Positions 42,551 through 53,614 of a stretch of 64,000 bases of DNA are shown here, in pieces. How positions within the stretch are numbered: the stretch's first letter is position 1; each line of letters begins with the position of its first letter. Source of the stretch: Bdellovibrio sp. Lineage in GTDB: Bacteria > Bdellovibrionota > Bacteriovoracia > Bacteriovoracales > Bacteriovoracaceae. The stretch lies in the NCBI GenBank assembly GCA_016187935.1, contig JACPIU010000026.1, forward strand, positions 248,001 through 312,000, written 5' to 3'. Both the position numbers and the translations under genes were made by a program. The notes under the pieces are model-generated. The model was not told the DNA's origin, made no database searches, and was given only the letters and a program-made list of their open reading frames with translations.

Positions 42551-43932
42551 TGAGATAAAGCTTTGATGGCTTCACGCGCCTTTTTGCCAATGCTACCTGC
42601 ACCCATGACAACAATGATAGGTGTATCTTTTGCAGATATAGACCTGGTGAAGACCTCAGAAAAATGATCGACAAATTGACTAAATGGGCCGTGAATGCGA
42701 TTTATGTCAACGCATAATCCTTCAGCGCTAATTCCGGCGATAGGCTGTTCAGAGGCCGGGTAGATTGGTAGAAGCCAGAGTTCATCTACCCCATTAAAAC
42801 AGTGGAGATATTGATTCCAGCAATCGCGAGTACGTGTATAACGATGTGGTTCAAAAAAGAGTTTAATTTTTTTTGTTGGATACATAGCTCTCAATGCCTC
42901 GATTGAAGCATTGATTTCTGTTGGATGATGAGCATAGTCGTCAAAAATAGTGATAACATTATCGGTATAGATCGGTTCAAGCCGTCGGCCGACACCAGAG
43001 AATTTTTTGATCATTTTGATTGCTTCAAAAATTGGAATTCCGAGTTTGCAACATAATGCCAAAGCTGCCAGAGAATTCTGCACATTATGTTTACCATTTA
43101 CAGCTAAGGAAACACGATATGAAGTTTGTTGATCCACCACAAGAGTATATGAAGAACCATCTGGTCCATGCTTGATCTCGTGAGCAAAATAGTTGTATTG
43201 TGCTCGTTGTTCAGGATTCAAACCATAATAAACATATGGTTTTTTCATTTTATCCTTAAATGCTAGCAATTTCTGATCATCACCATTTAAAATACACAGC
43301 CCATAAAATGGAACCATGTTAGCAAATTTGAAAAAAGCTTCATCCAAAGCGGTCTGAGTTCCATAATATTCGAGGTGATCATTATCTATATTTGTTATAA
43401 CGGATAAGAGGGGCGAGATTTCTAAAAAAGTGCCATCAGATTCATCTGCTTCAACAACCAGGTAATCACCTTTCCCCACTTTGGCATGGCCATGAAGGTT
43501 TTTGACAATTCCACCAATAATATAACTAGGATCTAATCCGCTTTCAACAAGAATGGTGGCAATCATTGATGTAGTTGTAGTTTTCCCATGAGCACCAGCG
43601 ATGGCCAATCCCTTTTTAAGCATCATGATATCTGAAAGAATTTCGGCACGGTTTAATACTGGAATATTCATGAGGCGAGCATTCTGTAATTCAACATTAT
43701 TTTTATCAACCGCTGAACTGTGAACAACAAGATTTGCTCCTCGAATATTTTCAGCATCATGACCAATGAAAATTGTTACACCTCTATCTCTCAGCTTATC
43801 AACGTTGGAACTCGATGCAATATCACTCCCACTGACTTTGAAACCAAAATCGAGAAGAATTTCGGCTATTGCACTGATGCCAATACCACCGATACCAACA
43901 AAGTGAACGGTTAAATTTTTATTAAGAATCAT
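42547..43932 (-). CDS. murC: UDP-N-acetylmuramate-L-alanine ligase
   Basis: About 461 aa from ATG 43932 (SD GGAG 6 nt upstream), the normal MurC length. VHFVGIGGIGISAIAE, the P-loop GAHGKTTTTSM, NIDNDHLEYYGT and DDYAHHPTEI are all present. It is downstream of ftsW, which it overlaps by 11 nt; murG is missing from this place. Confidence 0.96.
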   Translation of the reverse strand: MILNKNLTVHFVGIGGIGISAIAEILLDFGFKVSGSDIASSSNVDKLRDRGVTIFIGHDAENIRGANLVVHSSAVDKNNVELQNARLMNIPVLNRAEILSDIMMLKKGLAIAGAHGKTTTTSMIATILVESGLDPSYIIGGIVKNLHGHAKVGKGDYLVVEADESDGTFLEISPLLSVITNIDNDHLEYYGTQTALDEAFFKFANMVPFYGLCILNGDDQKLLAFKDKMKKPYVYYGLNPEQRAQYNYFAHEIKHGPDGSSYTLVVDQQTSYRVSLAVNGKHNVQNSLAALALCCKLGIPIFEAIKMIKKFSGVGRRLEPIYTDNVITIFDDYAHHPTEINASIEALRAMYPTKKIKLFFEPHRYTRTRDCWNQYLHCFNGVDELWLLPIYPASEQPIAGISAEGLCVDINRIHGPFSQFVDHFSEVFTRSISAKDTPIIVVMGAGSIGKKAREAIKALSQ

Positions 43933-45055
43933 GACGGACTCCAGAGGTGGCATTACGTTCAAAAGTTGCCTTATGTGCACTCATAAAAATACCAAGGGCC
44001 CACATGTTGGAAATGAGCGATGAGCCTCCAAAGCTGAGGAATGGAAGGTTTAAGCCTTTGGTAGGTAGTAAACCAAGAACGACACTCATATTCATGACTG
44101 CTTGAATTCCGAGCATGAAAATAATTCCGGATGAAACGAGAAAGGATAAACGACTCCGGAAACACAATGCAAGCTTAAAACCACAATATGTCAATGTGGC
44201 AAAAGCCAGGACAATAGCGATAACTCCAACAAGACCAAGTTCCTCTCCAATAACGCTAAAAATAAAATCATTATGTGCTTCAGGAAGATAAAATAATTTT
44301 TGGTTGCCATTACCTAAACCCTGACCAAGAAAACTTCCATTTGCAAAGGCCAGAAATGACTGAATCACTTGAAATCCGGAAGCTCGGGAGTTTTTCCAAG
44401 GATCAAGAAATGAGATTAGCCGCTTTATTCGATAAGGTTCCAAAAGCAAAATAAAAAGGGAGAGGGCGCTACTACATAATAATGTGAAATAGAATTTTTT
44501 ACGTGAAAGATGTGAGAGAAAGGCGATAAAGATAATTCCCATAGTGCAGATAGAAAATGCTCCAAAGTCTGGCTGTCGAGTAAGTATTAAAAGTGGGATA
44601 CAAATAACTGCCACATGAATAATTTTATTTTTAAGATCAAAATGAGAAAAATTTTCGAAAAAATTTGGAACAAATAAAATGAGAGAAAATTTAAGGAATT
44701 CAGCAGGTTGAATTCGTATACCCGCCAATCCCACCCATCGTGAAGCGCCTTTTACAGCGATTCCAAGACCGGGGATAAGAGTTAAAATTAAAAAACCAAT
44801 GATCGCCAAATTAATATAGAGAGCATTTTTAATAAGAAATTCAAAGCGCAAACGACTGGTTATGAAAAAAACACAAGCACCCGCTGCTAAATATAAGAGT
44901 TGTCGCTTGAGAAAAAAATTAGAGTCTGCAAAATGTTCTCGCGCCAAGATGTAGCTGGATGAATAGATCATGAGTACGCCAAACAAAGACAGCGCAATTA
45001 CCAGAAGTATTATCAACCGCTTGTACAAATCAATCTTGTCTCTGGTCATTTCCAT
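43922..45055 (-). CDS. ftsW: Peptidoglycan glycosyltransferase FtsW
   Basis: 377-aa SEDS polymerase with about ten membrane spans. Signature KGASRWVGLAGIRIQPAEFLK, ending LPFLSFGGSSLISNM. Works with FtsI to build septal glycan. ATG 45055 or 45049. Confidence 0.95.
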   Translation of the reverse strand: MEMTRDKIDLYKRLIILLVIALSLFGVLMIYSSSYILAREHFADSNFFLKRQLLYLAAGACVFFITSRLRFEFLIKNALYINLAIIGFLILTLIPGLGIAVKGASRWVGLAGIRIQPAEFLKFSLILFVPNFFENFSHFDLKNKIIHVAVICIPLLILTRQPDFGAFSICTMGIIFIAFLSHLSRKKFYFTLLCSSALSLFILLLEPYRIKRLISFLDPWKNSRASGFQVIQSFLAFANGSFLGQGLGNGNQKLFYLPEAHNDFIFSVIGEELGLVGVIAIVLAFATLTYCGFKLALCFRSRLSFLVSSGIIFMLGIQAVMNMSVVLGLLPTKGLNLPFLSFGGSSLISNMWALGIFMSAHKATFERNATSGVRHDS

Positions 45056-45090: not shown

Positions 45091-46473
45091 CTACAATTGA
45101 TAAATTAATTTTTTAAAATAATTTCCTCTTTCTTCAAAGTCTCTAAAAAAATCAGTCGCTGAGTTCCCTGGACTTAACAAAATGATATCACCTGTTCGCG
45201 ATTTTTGATAAGCAAACAAGACAGACTCTTCAAAAGAACCGACAATATAAGCTTGTGAATGATCACCAAGAGAACGGTTAAGTCGCTCTTTAGATTCACC
45301 CACTAAAACAATTACTCGCGTAAGGGCGATCAGATCTTTAGTATATTTTTCGAAATCGACATCCTCGTTATCTTTTCCACCTGCAATTAAAATGACTGGC
45401 TGTTTAAAAGCGGTAAGACTTTTTATCATTTCATCCATTGTTTCGGATTTTGAATCATTATAAAAAGAAACCCCATTTTTCTCCATGAGGAACTCTAATC
45501 TATGAGGAATTCCAGGGAAAAGTTCGATAGTTTTTTGAATAGCTTGATCAGACACCTCTAGTGCTTTGCAGGCAGTGATTGCAGCCAGGAGATTTTCTCT
45601 GTTTTCCTGACCTACAATTCGCATTTTAGTAACCACAAATTCAGAGTGGTAATGAATGTTGGAATGTATTCTGCGATCATGGAAATGACTTCCCTGAATT
45701 TCATTCATAACGCCAAGAGTGACAAAAGATTTTCGTGAATACCAGTATGTCTGGCATTTGGCATTTCTGAAGAAGGTGTTATTAGCGAGAGAATCGAAGT
45801 TAACGATCAGGACATCATCTGGTGAAAGTGACTTAACGATTCTTAACTTGGTCTCAAGATAATCACCCATGGATCTAAATGAAACAGTGGGATAAGTATC
45901 GCTCAGATTTGTAAACACAATCATCTTGGGATGAAAGTTGTCCAAACTGCGCATTTGCACAGCAGATACTTCTACGATGACGTAATCAATTTCATCCTTG
46001 TTAGGAAGCATTGAAAATTGGATAAAGGGAGCATCACTGGTACCACCGACAAAAACATTTTTGCCATCCAGCTTTAAAGCATACCCAATCATATGCGCTA
46101 CAGTTGTACGGCCAAAACTCCCACACACTGCAATGATGGGCCGACGGCAGAGTTTGTTGGCGAGGGCAAATTCACTATATACTTCTTTGCCAGATTTTCG
46201 CGCTAATTCTAATTGAGGCAGTTCTGGATTTACAGCAGAAGAATACACGATAACGTCAGCTTCTAAAAAATCATCGTCTTTATGTTCACCAAAGGTCATG
46301 GCCGGCGCAGGCTCAATACGCTTCAATTTTTTGACGGCCTTATTGAGGTCAAAAATTGGCTTAATATCGGTGACTCTAATTTCACATCCGAGTGAATTAA
46401 AAAAATTAATTAAAGCGAAGCCAGTTCTACCAATTCCAACAACTAATATTTTTCTTCCACGAAATCGTTCCAT
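45091..46473 (-). CDS. murD: UDP-N-acetylmuramoyl-L-alanine-D-glutamate ligase MurD, atypical active site
   Basis: 460-aa Mur ligase, identified by operon place and the MurD folds: ILVVGIGRTG start, VYSSAV, FYNDSKSETMDEM and AGGKDNEDVDF near the end. The P-loop is GSFGRTT (118-124) with arginine at 122 where Mur ligases have lysine, and the DHxDRH segment is replaced by LSDTYPTVSF; the carbamylated lysine (ETKLRI, K209) and NDSK are kept. It could be slow, use another cofactor mode, or be partly degenerate. GAGGGAG precedes the ATG. Confidence 0.85.
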   Translation of the reverse strand: MERFRGRKILVVGIGRTGFALINFFNSLGCEIRVTDIKPIFDLNKAVKKLKRIEPAPAMTFGEHKDDDFLEADVIVYSSAVNPELPQLELARKSGKEVYSEFALANKLCRRPIIAVCGSFGRTTVAHMIGYALKLDGKNVFVGGTSDAPFIQFSMLPNKDEIDYVIVEVSAVQMRSLDNFHPKMIVFTNLSDTYPTVSFRSMGDYLETKLRIVKSLSPDDVLIVNFDSLANNTFFRNAKCQTYWYSRKSFVTLGVMNEIQGSHFHDRRIHSNIHYHSEFVVTKMRIVGQENRENLLAAITACKALEVSDQAIQKTIELFPGIPHRLEFLMEKNGVSFYNDSKSETMDEMIKSLTAFKQPVILIAGGKDNEDVDFEKYTKDLIALTRVIVLVGESKERLNRSLGDHSQAYIVGSFEESVLFAYQKSRTGDIILLSPGNSATDFFRDFEERGNYFKKLIYQL

Positions 46474-47649: not shown

Positions 47650-50451
47650 TTACTTTGAATTTGAAAATAACGTTTCAAGTTTGATAGAACGACTTCCCTT
47701 AACAAAAATGCAGGCCTTATTCTGCAAGAACGCTGCCATTTTATTTTTGCAATCATCAGCATTTCGGAACTGCCCAAGGCATTTTCCTCCAAGGCCTTTG
47801 AGGTAATAATCAGAATATTTTCCAATAAAAATGATATTAGCAATCCCATGCGACCTCAACAGCCTTCCAATTCGTTCATGACCTTCCCGTGCGTGTTCTC
47901 CCAATTCATTCATATCACCAATGATAAAAAGACAATCGCTTAGCTGATGCCCCTTCATCATGACGTATTCGACAAAGCTATTTAGAGACGTTTCCATGGA
48001 ACTAGGATTGGCATTGTAAGCATCAAGAAAAATAAAATGACCATCTTCAATCCGTACCTCTGAACGGTTGTTATGTGGTCTGAAGGTCTTAATCGAATTA
48101 ACCAGCAAGGTTTTTTTGTCAGGCCATAGTTTCAGTGCCAAGGTAAACGCCATTGCCAGATTGACGAAATTATGAATCCCAATAAGGTAATCATTTTCGA
48201 GGATATACTGCTCTCCCGAGTCGTTCAGCATAAGTTGATTGTAGAACGTGTGATTAATTTTGATATTGCCGTTGTTGATACCAACAAAATATGTAGACTT
48301 CGACAGCGGTAGCGTTGAGAGAAGTGAATCGTCACCATTTGTCACAAATAACGCCTGAGATGACTTCATAACGTATTCATGCAATAGACGTTTTTCCTTA
48401 AAAACACCTGCGCGATCGCCAAAAAATTCAAGATGAGAATCCCCGACGGAAGTAAGAATGCCAGCATCTGGCATGGCAATATTACATAGATAATCAATTT
48501 CTCCAGGGTGATTAGTTCCCATCTCAAGAATGACTATCTCATGATCTGGTCGACTGGATAGAATTGTAAGTGGCAGGCCAATATGGTTATTCAAATTACC
48601 TTGGGTTTTATGTACCTTTCCAGGCAAAGCAGCATTTAAAAGGTGGTAGAGCATATCTTTAGTGGTAGTTTTTCCATTTGAGCCAGTAATACCAATCACA
48701 ACTATCTTCCGTGTTTTACGCAATCTTTGGAGATATTGTCTGGCAAGCTCACCTAAAAAAATATTTGTGTCAGTTACAAAAATAAATTGCAGATTGGCAT
48801 CCTTGGCAAAAAGATTTTTTGCCAAGGATTCATTGCGTTTATTTCCATTTAAGACGAAGCTTCGAACTCCCCGGGCAAAACAGGCCTCAAGGTAATCTGC
48901 TCCATCAAATTTATCTCCCACCAAGGCCACGAAAACCTGGTGAGGTGAAATTAATCGAGAATCGGTTGAAATATCTGAGTTCAAACGGAAAAGTGTTGGA
49001 CCAAAACTATGCAGAAAGGATGGAAGTTGCTTAATGATCTTCATCCCAGCGATAGATTCTAATAATTCACTATCATTAAAATGGTATCTTACGCCCTTAA
49101 TTTCCTGATAACTCTCGTGACCCTTTCCTGCAATCACGATGATATCTGATAATTTCATGGAATCAACAATATCGCAGATTGCACGCTGTCTATCTAATAT
49201 GATTGCAGGCTTGCAATTTTTGATTCCACTTACAATATCATTTGCAATAGAAATAGGTTCTTCAAAGCGCGGATTATCATTAGTAACAATAATTTCATCA
49301 CAATAGGTATCAGCAATTTGCCCCATCAGAGGTCGTTTGGTTTTATCGCGATTTCCACCGCAACCAAAAATTATAGTGAGTTTTTTATTAGGATAAATTT
49401 TACGAGTTTCCGATAGAATTTTTTCCAATCCGTCAGGAGTATGGGCGTAATCAACGATGACATCACCAGCTCCCTCCATATGGTGGACCGAAAATCTTCC
49501 TGGTGGAGGTCGGAGATTATCAAGTTGCTCACTTTCAATATGAATCCCAAGTGTATCTAAGACAGAAATGGCGAGGGATAAATTGTGATAATTAAATTCT
49601 ACTCTTAAAAAAGACGGAAGTTGTCGCTTCACGTTCAATACTTTGGCAAGTAAAACTCTATCTGCATCGGAGGGTACAGCATTTAATATTTGCTGGTATA
49701 ATGAAGATGAGTCTGGACTGATAACTAACCTGCCATAGGCGGAAATACTTCTTAATATTTTTAATTTAGCGTTAAAATAGTTCGAAAAATTACCATGATA
49801 ATCCAAATGATCATGGGTTAAATTGGTCCAACCTGCACTTTGAAATGTTAAATCTAGGAATCGCCCTTGTTCTAGAGCATGACTACTGGCCTCAAGAAAT
49901 AAATATTCAATTCCTTGAACAGCAAGTCCATGCAAGGTTTCACGAAGTTCAAAATAATCAGGTGTTGTTAGAAGCGAGTCCCTTATTTTTGCCGTTCCAA
50001 TATAAAGACCGATAGTTCCAAGCGATGCAGACTTTATACCGCTTAAATTTGCCAATTGGTTTAAAAAAAATACAGTCGAAGATTTTCCATTGGTTCCAGT
50101 GATCGCGACAATTTTAGGAATTCCTTCAGATCGTTTCCCAAAGATGAGATCACAAATTTCTTGATAATGTTTGCCCTCAAAAAAACTCTTTGAAACAATT
50201 TTATTTACCGGGCGAGGAAAATTGAAATCACAAGGCAAAATAAAATTATTGCATCGAGATTTCAAGAATCTTTCCAGAAATATGCTGCGGGCCTTTTCGT
50301 CATTCTCCTTAAGATTATAAACCACTAAATCCTGTGAACTGGCATTCTCAAGAGTGGAAGTTATCCGCGTGATCTCATCATTGCTAATAATGGTTGGCGT
50401 ATCATTCAAGTCTAATTTAGGCACGATATCTGAAATATGTACTTTTCCCAT
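47650..50451 (-). CDS. murE-murF: Fused MurE-MurF ligase
   Basis: 933 aa in one frame. MurE half (1-469): P-loop GTNGKS (119-124), EASSHALEQGR, THDHLDYHG, and DNPR (392-395), the motif for meso-diaminopimelate addition. MurF half (about 470-933): STDSR entry region, P-loop GSNGKT (590-595), GNLNNHIGLPL and LDAYNANPSSME. They add meso-DAP and D-Ala-D-Ala to UDP-MurNAc-dipeptide. An internal ATG at 49044 could be the old murF start but has no separate SD. No internal stop. Confidence 0.95.
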   Translation of the reverse strand: MGKVHISDIVPKLDLNDTPTIISNDEITRITSTLENASSQDLVVYNLKENDEKARSIFLERFLKSRCNNFILPCDFNFPRPVNKIVSKSFFEGKHYQEICDLIFGKRSEGIPKIVAITGTNGKSSTVFFLNQLANLSGIKSASLGTIGLYIGTAKIRDSLLTTPDYFELRETLHGLAVQGIEYLFLEASSHALEQGRFLDLTFQSAGWTNLTHDHLDYHGNFSNYFNAKLKILRSISAYGRLVISPDSSSLYQQILNAVPSDADRVLLAKVLNVKRQLPSFLRVEFNYHNLSLAISVLDTLGIHIESEQLDNLRPPPGRFSVHHMEGAGDVIVDYAHTPDGLEKILSETRKIYPNKKLTIIFGCGGNRDKTKRPLMGQIADTYCDEIIVTNDNPRFEEPISIANDIVSGIKNCKPAIILDRQRAICDIVDSMKLSDIIVIAGKGHESYQEIKGVRYHFNDSELLESIAGMKIIKQLPSFLHSFGPTLFRLNSDISTDSRLISPHQVFVALVGDKFDGADYLEACFARGVRSFVLNGNKRNESLAKNLFAKDANLQFIFVTDTNIFLGELARQYLQRLRKTRKIVVIGITGSNGKTTTKDMLYHLLNAALPGKVHKTQGNLNNHIGLPLTILSSRPDHEIVILEMGTNHPGEIDYLCNIAMPDAGILTSVGDSHLEFFGDRAGVFKEKRLLHEYVMKSSQALFVTNGDDSLLSTLPLSKSTYFVGINNGNIKINHTFYNQLMLNDSGEQYILENDYLIGIHNFVNLAMAFTLALKLWPDKKTLLVNSIKTFRPHNNRSEVRIEDGHFIFLDAYNANPSSMETSLNSFVEYVMMKGHQLSDCLFIIGDMNELGEHAREGHERIGRLLRSHGIANIIFIGKYSDYYLKGLGGKCLGQFRNADDCKNKMAAFLQNKACIFVKGSRSIKLETLFSNSK

Positions 50452-50454
50452 AAT

Positions 50455-51906
50455 CTATTCGATAGTTGGCGGTTCGTAATACAAATCAACTTCAGTGACA
50501 CTATCCGTGAATAAAGTGCCGGCAGGTGGTCCTTGTTTTATAACTAATCCAACGCCATGGTGCCTGATCTTTAAAGGAAGTTTTGTGATCAATGTTTCTA
50601 CGCTCTGCTTATCGAGACCGGTGAAATTTGGAAGTACACGTCCTGTATCGGATAGCGCGCTTTGATTCCTAACAACGAGATCTTGTGTCACACTTTTAGA
50701 ATTTGATTTGGCATCTGCAACATTGATAAACATCTTATCTCGTATGAGAATATGTTCCATAACTTTCTTAAAAACAGGTGCAGCAACATCATTGCCATAG
50801 TATTTCTTACCTGTGGGATTATCGATATATACGTAAACGACATATTTTTTTGCTGTCTGTACAGGGAATCCAATAAAACCAGGAATATATCCATGATAAC
50901 CGCCATTTTCGGATGGACGTTGGGTTGTACTTGTTTTTCCAGCAATCTTGAAAAGTGGGATTTTGGCATTTGCTCCAGTTCCTTTCTCGACGGCATCGGC
51001 TAGCATACGTGTTATCGATGTCACGGTTTCTTTGCTAAGAACGCGCATTCCGGGCGCTTGTGCATTCGCTTTTAATATGGTTGGGCGTACATAAGTTCCC
51101 CCATTGGCAATAATGGCATAGGCCGACAATATTTGAATTGGGGTGACTGCCATACCTTGGCCGAAGGAAATATTGCTCAAGCGTAAAGGTGTTACTTCGT
51201 TTATGGCAGGCATAATACCACGCGATTCGCCTGCATATTCGATTCCAGATTTCTTTCCCAGGCCAAATTTATCAAAGAAATACAAAAGTCGTGGAGAACC
51301 AAGCTCAAAGGCAATTTTTGTAGTTCCGATATTGGAGCTATGTTCTAATATTTCTGTGACAGTGAGCCATTCAAATTTTTTCTTACTTTCGGCTTCATTG
51401 ATAATGTGATCACCGATTCTAAGCTGCCCACGTTCGCAAAAATATTTTTTTGTCGCTGTTGTGAGTCCTGACTCCATTGCCGCTGCGATGGTAAATGTCT
51501 TGGCAATTGAACCTGGTTCGATTGGATCTGTAATAAAGGCCAATCGCTGAAATTTTCGATTCAATTCATTTGGCCTATTTGGATCATAGGATGGATAGTT
51601 TGCCATGGCCAAAATCTCGCCTGTTTCAGCATCCATAACACCAATGCCTCCCATCTTTGCGCCATGTTCAATAACCGCCTCGCGAAGTTGCTTTTCGGAA
51701 TTTGCTTGAACTTCAAGATCGAAGGATAATTGAAGGCCGGTTCCAGGATCGCCAGGGTCGATAGAAGTCGTTTTTAGGGGACGCCCTTTTGCATCTTTCA
51801 CAAACCGAATAACATGAGGTTTTCCTTTTAGTTTAGTGTCAAAAAAATATTCTGAACCTGAAAGACCTTTGTTATCTTGTCCCACAAAACCTAGAATTTG
51901 TGACAA
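50455..51906 (-). CDS. ftsI: FtsI (PBP3), C-terminal part: transpeptidase and PASTA domains
   Basis: 483 aa from TTG 51906, but the frame is open further up to the A10 tract near 52033, and the missing stretch (WIARHYRLSEIQ, VRLYPNNEILSQ) is normal FtsI sequence. Catalytic motifs: EPGSIAKTFT (SxxK), HSSN (SxN) and GKTSTTQ (KTG changed to KTS). A PASTA domain ends the protein. A septal transpeptidase. The N-terminal part is 51977-52378; see the frameshift entry. Confidence 0.88.
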   Translation of the reverse strand: MSQILGFVGQDNKGLSGSEYFFDTKLKGKPHVIRFVKDAKGRPLKTTSIDPGDPGTGLQLSFDLEVQANSEKQLREAVIEHGAKMGGIGVMDAETGEILAMANYPSYDPNRPNELNRKFQRLAFITDPIEPGSIAKTFTIAAAMESGLTTATKKYFCERGQLRIGDHIINEAESKKKFEWLTVTEILEHSSNIGTTKIAFELGSPRLLYFFDKFGLGKKSGIEYAGESRGIMPAINEVTPLRLSNISFGQGMAVTPIQILSAYAIIANGGTYVRPTILKANAQAPGMRVLSKETVTSITRMLADAVEKGTGANAKIPLFKIAGKTSTTQRPSENGGYHGYIPGFIGFPVQTAKKYVVYVYIDNPTGKKYYGNDVAAPVFKKVMEHILIRDKMFINVADAKSNSKSVTQDLVVRNQSALSDTGRVLPNFTGLDKQSVETLITKLPLKIRHHGVGLVIKQGPPAGTLFTDSVTEVDLYYEPPTIE

Positions 51907-51976
51907 GATTTCATTGTTGGGATATAAGCGGACAGAATTTTCCTCGATGAAAACGCCCTTGAGTTTTCGTATTTCC

Positions 51977-52378
51977 TCAGCTTGAATTTCCGAAAGGCGA
52001 TAGTGTCGGGCAATCCATGTATATTTTTTTTTTCTTTGCCAATTTTTTTGCTAAATGTTTTGCTTTGAAGTCTGGCACAATTCTTTCCAAGTCAGAATAT
52101 ACCTTTTTGTCTAAAACGAGTTTGGGGATAACAAACAAATTGTAAGCCTTCAAATTAATTGCAAGTGGAGATCCATTTCGATCTAAAATATTGCCTCTAT
52201 CGGGATAAAAGGTCACCTCGCGAATGATTTGACTATTTGAGTATAGCAAGAGCTTTTCGCGATTTATTACTTGAAGATAAGTGGCCTTAATAACAACTAA
52301 AGTAAAAAGTAATATTACAAATGAAAATGCTATTGTAATTCTAAACTTGCGCTGGCCAATTTCATCGGCTGGATTCAT
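51977..52378 (-). CDS. ftsI: FtsI (PBP3), N-terminal part: membrane anchor and dimerisation region
   Basis: 133 aa. One membrane span (ITIAFSFVILLFTLVVIKAT), then RGNILDRNGSPLAINL, the usual FtsI/PBP N-terminal motif. It ends in the wrong frame after KKLAKKKK, adding 14 alien residues to a stop. ATGA overlap with ftsL. Confidence 0.85.
   Translation of the reverse strand: MNPADEIGQRKFRITIAFSFVILLFTLVVIKATYLQVINREKLLLYSNSQIIREVTFYPDRGNILDRNGSPLAINLKAYNLFVIPKLVLDKKVYSDLERIVPDFKAKHLAKKLAKKKKIYMDCPTLSPFGNSS
52024..52033 (-). other. A10 homopolymer frameshift site in ftsI
   Basis: Ten A on the coding strand. Dropping one A (or adding two) joins the N- and C-terminal frames of ftsI: KKKK then YTWIARHYRL. 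It may be transcriptional slippage, a real mutation or a homopolymer sequencing error. Confidence 0.85.
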
Positions 52379-52677
52379 GGCACCACTATTATTTTTTCTG
52401 CTTTAGGCTCTACGAATCCTAATTTCCAAGCTAACTTTTTTAGGTTTTCGCTTGAAAGCAAACGTGCCCTTCTTGCATGCAGGTCTCGGTTTTCTGTCTT
52501 AATTAAATCAATCTGCTTTGTTATTGCTGCTATTTCGTAATCCAATTCAACGTTCTTAAGTCGGAACATTAAAAATAACGAAGCCAAACCGATGGCAGCC
52601 ATGAAGATGAGCAATATTTTACTACTGAAAATTTTTGAATCTTTAAAGAGTTTCTTTTTCTTTATGTTTTTGAACAT
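52375..52677 (-). CDS. ftsL: FtsL-like division protein
   Basis: 100 aa: basic cytoplasmic tail, one span (KILLIFMAAIGLASLFLMF), then a coiled coil (LDYEIAAITKQIDLIKTEN). Fits FtsL by topology and place between rsmH and ftsI. Overlaps rsmH by 35 nt. Confidence 0.8.
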   Translation of the reverse strand: MFKNIKKKKLFKDSKIFSSKILLIFMAAIGLASLFLMFRLKNVELDYEIAAITKQIDLIKTENRDLHARRARLLSSENLKKLAWKLGFVEPKAEKIIVVP

Positions 52678-53614
52678 ATGCTTCTATGGTTGCCAACTCC
52701 AGTATTCTAAGTTTAGCACTTCTTGAGCGTGAGTTGCTTTTTATTTCTTCTTCCGTTGGAACAATGGGATTTTTTGTAATTACCCGATATTTTTTGTCAC
52801 CTTTGCTGAGATCACGAAAAAAATGCTTAACCATTCTATCCTCGAGACTATGAAAAGTGATGATGCCGAGTCGGCATGTTTCTAACTCAATTTGCTTGAA
52901 TCCCTGCAATAATGAAAAGAGAGAATCGAGTTCGGCATTCACGGCAATTCTTAGTGCTTGAAAGGTTTTTGTGGCCGGATGTAATCTGCCATGTCTTAAT
53001 TTTTTCGGATAAGCGTGAAAGATAAGGCTTTCGAGTTCACTTGTCCTTCGAATAAGACCAACCTCCTTTCTATGATCAACGATTCTTTTTGCAAGACGAC
53101 GAGCGAAAGTCTCCTCACCGAATTTATATAAAAGATCCGCTAATTTCTCCTCTGAAAAATTATTGATGATATCAGCTGCGCTCAATTCGAGAGCGGTGTT
53201 CATCCTCATATCGAGCGGCCCATCATGGCGAAAGCTGAATCCTCTTTCAGCCTTATCAAACTGGTGGGATGAGACTCCAAGATCTGCCAAAATAACTTTC
53301 ATTTTGCTTGCCTTCCACCAAGGATGAGCGTCAAGGATTTGGGTGAACTGTGCAAAATTTTTTTGCTCAAGAGAGATTCGAGTATTAAGACCTAATGATT
53401 GTGAATACTCAAGTGCATGGTCTATAGCATCTTTATCCTGATCAAACCCAATGACATGTAAATGTTTAAATTTCTCTAAAGCTGCAAAACTATGTCCACC
53501 GCCACCAAAAGTCAGATCGGCCAGGACGCAATCATCATTCTCACTAATGTTTGCAAAGAGATTTTGAATGACTTCATTTAGAAGTACGGGAATATGATAA
53601 TCTGAATCAAACAT
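52643..53614 (-). CDS. rsmH: 16S rRNA m4C1402 methyltransferase
   Basis: 323 aa. HIPVLLNEVI, LTFGGGGHS, LADLGVSSHQFDKAERGFSFRHDGPLDMRM and IITFHSLEDRMVKHFF are all RsmH. First gene of the dcw cluster here; mraZ is absent. Confidence 0.97.
   Translation of the reverse strand: MFDSDYHIPVLLNEVIQNLFANISENDDCVLADLTFGGGGHSFAALEKFKHLHVIGFDQDKDAIDHALEYSQSLGLNTRISLEQKNFAQFTQILDAHPWWKASKMKVILADLGVSSHQFDKAERGFSFRHDGPLDMRMNTALELSAADIINNFSEEKLADLLYKFGEETFARRLAKRIVDHRKEVGLIRRTSELESLIFHAYPKKLRHGRLHPATKTFQALRIAVNAELDSLFSLLQGFKQIELETCRLGIITFHSLEDRMVKHFFRDLSKGDKKYRVITKNPIVPTEEEIKSNSRSRSAKLRILELATIEAYVQKHKEKETL

Follow-up and report, generated by a model that had tools for sequence, protein, structure and literature searches.

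Does this bacterium live with an ftsI gene whose reading frame is broken at a run of ten A, or does its genome lack the tenth A? The window, which is the whole 64,000-nucleotide stretch of a Bdellovibrio sp. assembly analysed here, holds the gene as follows:

51977..52378, minus strand: ftsI N-terminal part, as in the deposited sequence; 133 aa, made up of about 119 FtsI residues and 14 foreign ones; first half of the PBP_dimer domain
52024..52033, minus strand: A10 tract, the point at which the frame is lost; T10 on the plus strand; the congeners read AACAAACAAAAGTAT and AATAAGCAGAAATAT there
50455..52023, minus strand: ftsI remainder, in the next frame; 522 aa; second half of the dimer domain, transpeptidase domain (SIAK, SSN and KTS motifs) and PASTA domain

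The N-terminal frame begins with an ATG at 52378 on the minus strand, reaches ...LAKKLAKKKK as it is encoded into the A10 (52033-52024), then runs through the 14 foreign residues (IYMDCPTLSPFGNSS, the first of them borderline) to its end at 51977. The next frame reads YTWIARHYRLSEIQ...VRLYPNNEILSQ... from 52023, stays open down to a TAG at 50457-50455, and is open upstream as far as about 52050. The initial annotation had described both halves correctly: the 14 alien residues after ten A are there in the translation of the 52378-51977 reading frame, and the stop-free continuation of FtsI to 50455 is seen in the frame from 52023 and its Pfam domains. Its span of 51907-52378 covers the start of the second part, and the gene itself extends to 50455. 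When only the length of the run is altered, the frames are joined by A9 in the message, as had been claimed for one fewer A, and likewise by A12; A8, A10, A11 and A13 all lead to an early stop. Two marks of slippage rescue are therefore present at the locus, an A/T run of at least nine at the frame junction (the A10 at 52033-52024) and an indel within the run, to A9 or A12, that yields a full-length frame.

A single PBP_dimer domain straddles the break (profile positions 3-54 before it, 91-179 after it), and its second half is followed by Transpeptidase and then PASTA (Pfam). Identity to the congener's FtsI is 87% over residues 1-119 of the N-terminal part and 82% across all 522 aa of the C-terminal part. 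The gene is recognizable as ftsI by its dimer and transpeptidase domains and by its dcw position between ftsL and murE; in NCBIfam the C-terminal part matches SpoVD/FtsI-type models best, not MrdA, all of these hits being below curated cut-offs.

A translated search of contig 19 (430 kb) against a congener's 420-kb contig, covering about 10% of the genome, gives four frame-change candidates, among which ftsI is the only gene with a break. The other three were dismissed: two look like antisense open reading frames, and the third corresponds to the 5' leader of a lon-like gene that is itself intact. The ftsI A10 is also the sole A/T run of at least ten on the contig. As the only frame change in a real gene over 430 kb, falling on the only run of that length, the ftsI frame break at A10 in the deposited sequence is confirmed and is not chance.

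FtsI is essential in other bacteria. This genome (4.4 Mb in 48 contigs, 99% complete, G+C 39%) encodes four transpeptidase-domain proteins: MrdA/PBP2, FtsI, a class D beta-lactamase-like protein and PBP1A. A second FtsI, whose presence the initial annotation had counted among the grounds against its reading, was sought among all of these and none was found; the idea of another ftsI elsewhere was rejected on the identities of the other three, which leaves ftsI with one copy. Besides FtsI, MrdA is the sole class B PBP, and it is encoded beside a putative rodA. (The class D beta-lactamase-like protein of the same genome, at L003:1360-2202, has a best model that scores below its cut-off.) The dcw neighbours of ftsI are these:

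52643..53614, minus strand: rsmH (mraW), intact; named by sequence and position; congener ortholog intact
52375..52677, minus strand: ftsL-like gene directly upstream of ftsI; DivIC/FtsL family, below the curated cut-off
47650..50451, minus strand: murE-murF fusion, intact; two Mur ligase modules in 933 aa
46510..47586, minus strand: mraY, intact; named by sequence and position; ortholog comparison with the congener
45091..46473, minus strand: murD, intact; named by sequence and position; ortholog comparison with the congener
43922..45055, minus strand: ftsW, intact; named by sequence and position; ortholog comparison with the congener

Their open frames and congener orthologs uphold the earlier statement that the flanking dcw genes are intact.

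The comparison of tract length with related genomes, suggested in the initial annotation, has been run, and neither of the two congeners (the MAGs Bdellovibrionales bacterium GWA2_49_15 and nzgw164) has an A-run at the site. Their protein reads A-N-K-Q-K-Y-T-W, with codons AAC AAA CAA AAG TAT in one and AAT AAG CAG AAA TAT in the other, where the window has AAG AAA AAA AAA A TAT; across the wider family, the residues before YTW form a basic stretch of variable sequence. An FtsI match was found in 58 of 58 relatives searched and is stop-interrupted in none; in most of them the gene is open over about 630-720 aa, although in a few incomplete genomes the match is only weak or is cut by the contig. 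Searches for the same species gave no relative in a scan of viral contigs and only the two congeners plus two more distant relatives in the genome collection. Since the sequence in both congeners is interrupted and in frame, the run arose newly in this lineage and does not represent a conserved slippage site; such a site in the family was rejected, the congeners lacking the tract and the wider family varying there. Conservation of the tract is typical of programmed slippage cases, and adventitious rescue does not require it. Here neither tract nor frameshift is shared between species (two congeners interrupted and in frame, 0/58 relatives with internal stops), so nothing suggests a programmed site.

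The same comparison bears on programmed ribosomal frameshifting, by which a +1 (or -2) shift at AAG AAA AAA AAA would provide regulated production of FtsI. Re-pairing of the lysine tRNA is possible at any point of the run, and ribosome sliding on A-runs has been reported (as cited in PMC5009743). Classic A-rich slippery sites, however, shift -1 and not +1, and this site is conserved in no relative. A stable RNA structure was sought downstream of the A10 and none was found (fold z-score +0.28), which gives no support to a programmed shift with a downstream structure. We hold this explanation to be very improbable.

Measured against the congener, ftsI has a dN of 0.072 before the break and 0.108 after it, where the genome reference from 346 orthologs has a median of 0.074 and quartiles of 0.043 and 0.127; synonymous changes are saturated. 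Bringing in the second congener as a third sequence assigns 18 FtsI residue changes to this genome only and 8 to GWA2_49_15 only, and the same count over three neighbouring genes (50 here, 35 in GWA2_49_15) goes in the same direction. The catalytic motifs are intact. ftsI shows no sign of decay. The purifying selection beyond the break that marks slippage rescue is found (dN near the median), but a genome with A9 would predict the same; the absence of decay is compatible with a genomic A9, with a frameshift of very recent origin and with a rescue that works, and cannot separate the three. It does bear on whether ftsI could be a recent true pseudogene, or an on/off phase-variable gene, in a cell that divides without full FtsI. 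Replication slippage makes an A10 hypermutable, and homopolymer tracts of this sort serve in contingency genes (PMC2831843). Yet there is no second FtsI, the other dcw genes are intact, dN is normal, the catalytic motifs are kept, and switching off an essential septal transpeptidase should kill the cell; we find this highly improbable. A fixed, unrescued break in a single-copy essential gene is very unlikely, which narrows the choice to two: either the A10 is not fixed, or it is fixed and the gene is rescued.

That choice depends in part on how the assembly treats A-runs. All 15 A/T9 runs in the 346 reciprocal-best orthologous genes are in frame, and other frame breaks, sought in the same genes, were not seen. 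A further 68 A/T9-11 tracts were sampled elsewhere. Of these, 31 sit well within an open frame, 20 close to an end of one, and 16 seem to be intergenic; the last, a junction candidate (L164:2349), has what appears to be a gene end with a ribosome-binding sequence after it and resembles an ordinary gene boundary. All checked A/T9-11 runs well inside genes, other than the ftsI tract, keep frame. Four other runs of 10-11 fall within open frames: an A11 in an lgt-like gene (L038:1501-1511), an A10 in a pepT-like M20 peptidase gene (L042:1501-1510), an A11 in a hypothetical gene (L044:1501-1511) and a T10 in an S28-type peptidase gene. The pepT-like A10 is in frame with respect to the orthologs of both congeners. 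An error-ridden assembly was rejected as a general explanation, there being no other homopolymer-linked frame break in 430 kb or at the 68 tracts. Further breaks would be expected of an error-prone assembly and are not required for a single error; a single isolated assembly error at the A10 is possible.

Genome-wide, A/T runs of at least ten number 10 tracts in 4.4 Mb, against about 360 expected (extrapolated from a dinucleotide expectation of about 25 runs of at least ten per 312 kb), a depletion of about 36-fold. This is in line with the underrepresentation of long runs described by Baranov et al. (PMC1088944). Avoidance this strong argues that runs of at least ten are harmful in the organism. 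The host had been called AT-rich, which holds mildly (G+C 39%), but its long A-runs are strongly avoided, unlike those of Buchnera.

Our first choice, with a probability of about 0.6, is that the genome really has A9 and that A10 is an assembly miscount or a minor slipped allele; weights on explanations here are judgement and not a computed posterior. The lineage would have changed N-K-Q-K to K-K-K-K, by which the relatives' interrupted sequence became one uninterrupted A9 within an ordinary working ftsI. The A10 in the record would then be a one-base miscount of the contig's longest A-run, or a minor slipped-strand allele taken into the consensus, and we infer that the living population is not fixed for the extra A. 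This explanation draws on ftsI encoding the only division-type class B PBP of the genome, of a kind essential in other bacteria; on the uninterrupted match in all 58 relatives and the two congeners without the run; on coding sequence that evolves like the rest of the genome on both sides of the break; on the break's position at the one A/T run of 10 that the 430 kb contain, where length errors are likeliest; and on the strong genome-wide avoidance of runs of at least ten. Against it stand the otherwise accurate assembly of A-runs (346 orthologs, 15 A/T9 runs, 68 further tracts) and the in-frame A10 and A11 runs inside other genes.

The accuracy of the assembly in A-runs speaks instead for an A10 that is real and fixed, with RNA polymerase slippage restoring FtsI through a mixed mRNA pool (A9, A10, A11, A12...). 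The A9 and A12 messages would give full-length FtsI, enough for division, and the A10 message a 133-aa stub; ribosomes sliding on AAA AAA AAA may contribute in addition. A10 is within the proven slippery range: runs of A9 and longer are slippery in bacteria (PMC1088944), slippage at A10 is documented for spa13 of Shigella and for a mur gene of Buchnera (both cited in PMC6260861, the former in PMC5009743 as well), and frameshifted endosymbiont genes are cited as having about 30% full-length/in-frame transcripts (in PMC3017870). Either A9 or A12 restores the frame exactly, ftsI is undecayed, and its break is the only one in 430 kb. The change needed, however, is -1 (or +2). Single-base insertions usually outnumber deletions on A-runs (PMC5574713, PMC6260861), and the first of these, a transcriptome study, found no transcription error restoring a reading frame. 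One reporter study (PMC6260861) detected no deletion on short A-runs with E. coli RNA polymerase, and it cites RNA polymerase slippage in both directions on A9-A11 runs. The tract is absent from the congeners, so nothing shows selection keeping it, and the genome shows strong avoidance of long A-runs. We entertain slippage tentatively, as the second choice, and think it unlikely that a free-living, moderately AT-rich Bacteriovoracaceae-type bacterium, with a fixed A10 in its single essential ftsI, lives on FtsI from slipped transcripts. A homopolymer length error, which the initial annotation named as the plain alternative, is at least as likely as slippage.

The closest known parallels are Buchnera and Blochmannia, in which poly(A) frameshifts are rescued by transcriptional slippage (Tamas et al. 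2008, as cited in PMC2831843); the rescued frameshifts of Blochmannia vafer are in dnaX, dnaG and pth (PMC3017870). As there, an essential gene here has a single indel in a run of about 10 A, with undecayed flanks. Each of those genomes, however, is extremely AT-rich, with more than 100 genic long A-runs and several frameshifts of this type, some conserved between species or shown in RNA, whereas this is one unconserved case in a 4.4-Mb genome of 39% G+C that avoids long runs. The locus also resembles "pseudo-pseudogenes" (Baranov et al. 2005, PMC1088944), where a frameshift creates or sits in a slippage-prone run of one genome and homologs are intact; it differs in that ftsI is essential and rescue would need -1 or +2. 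It shares with homopolymer errors or minor alleles in draft assemblies a one-base difference, at the longest run, in a gene expected to be intact, but no other such error appears in the 10% of the genome compared or at the further sampled tracts.

If A10 is a miscount, the locus is a reminder that one base can make an essential gene look like a pseudogene. If A10 is fixed, a free-living bacterium in which long A-runs are few would make an essential septal enzyme only through slips of polymerase or ribosome, which would offer a clean test of the amount of FtsI a cell needs. Slippage rescue, if true, would add a case to a mechanism already described in insect endosymbionts (Buchnera, Blochmannia), and rescue of an essential division gene would not be limited to decaying endosymbiont genomes.

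The 933-aa murE-murF fusion has an equivalent open frame of 932 aa in the congener GWA2_49_15, from which the fusion can be taken as real. FtsI itself (50455-52023, minus strand) carries a PASTA domain at its C-terminus and has a SpoVD-type model as its top score. The dimer-transpeptidase-PASTA layout with a SpoVD-type match is better known from Gram-positives.
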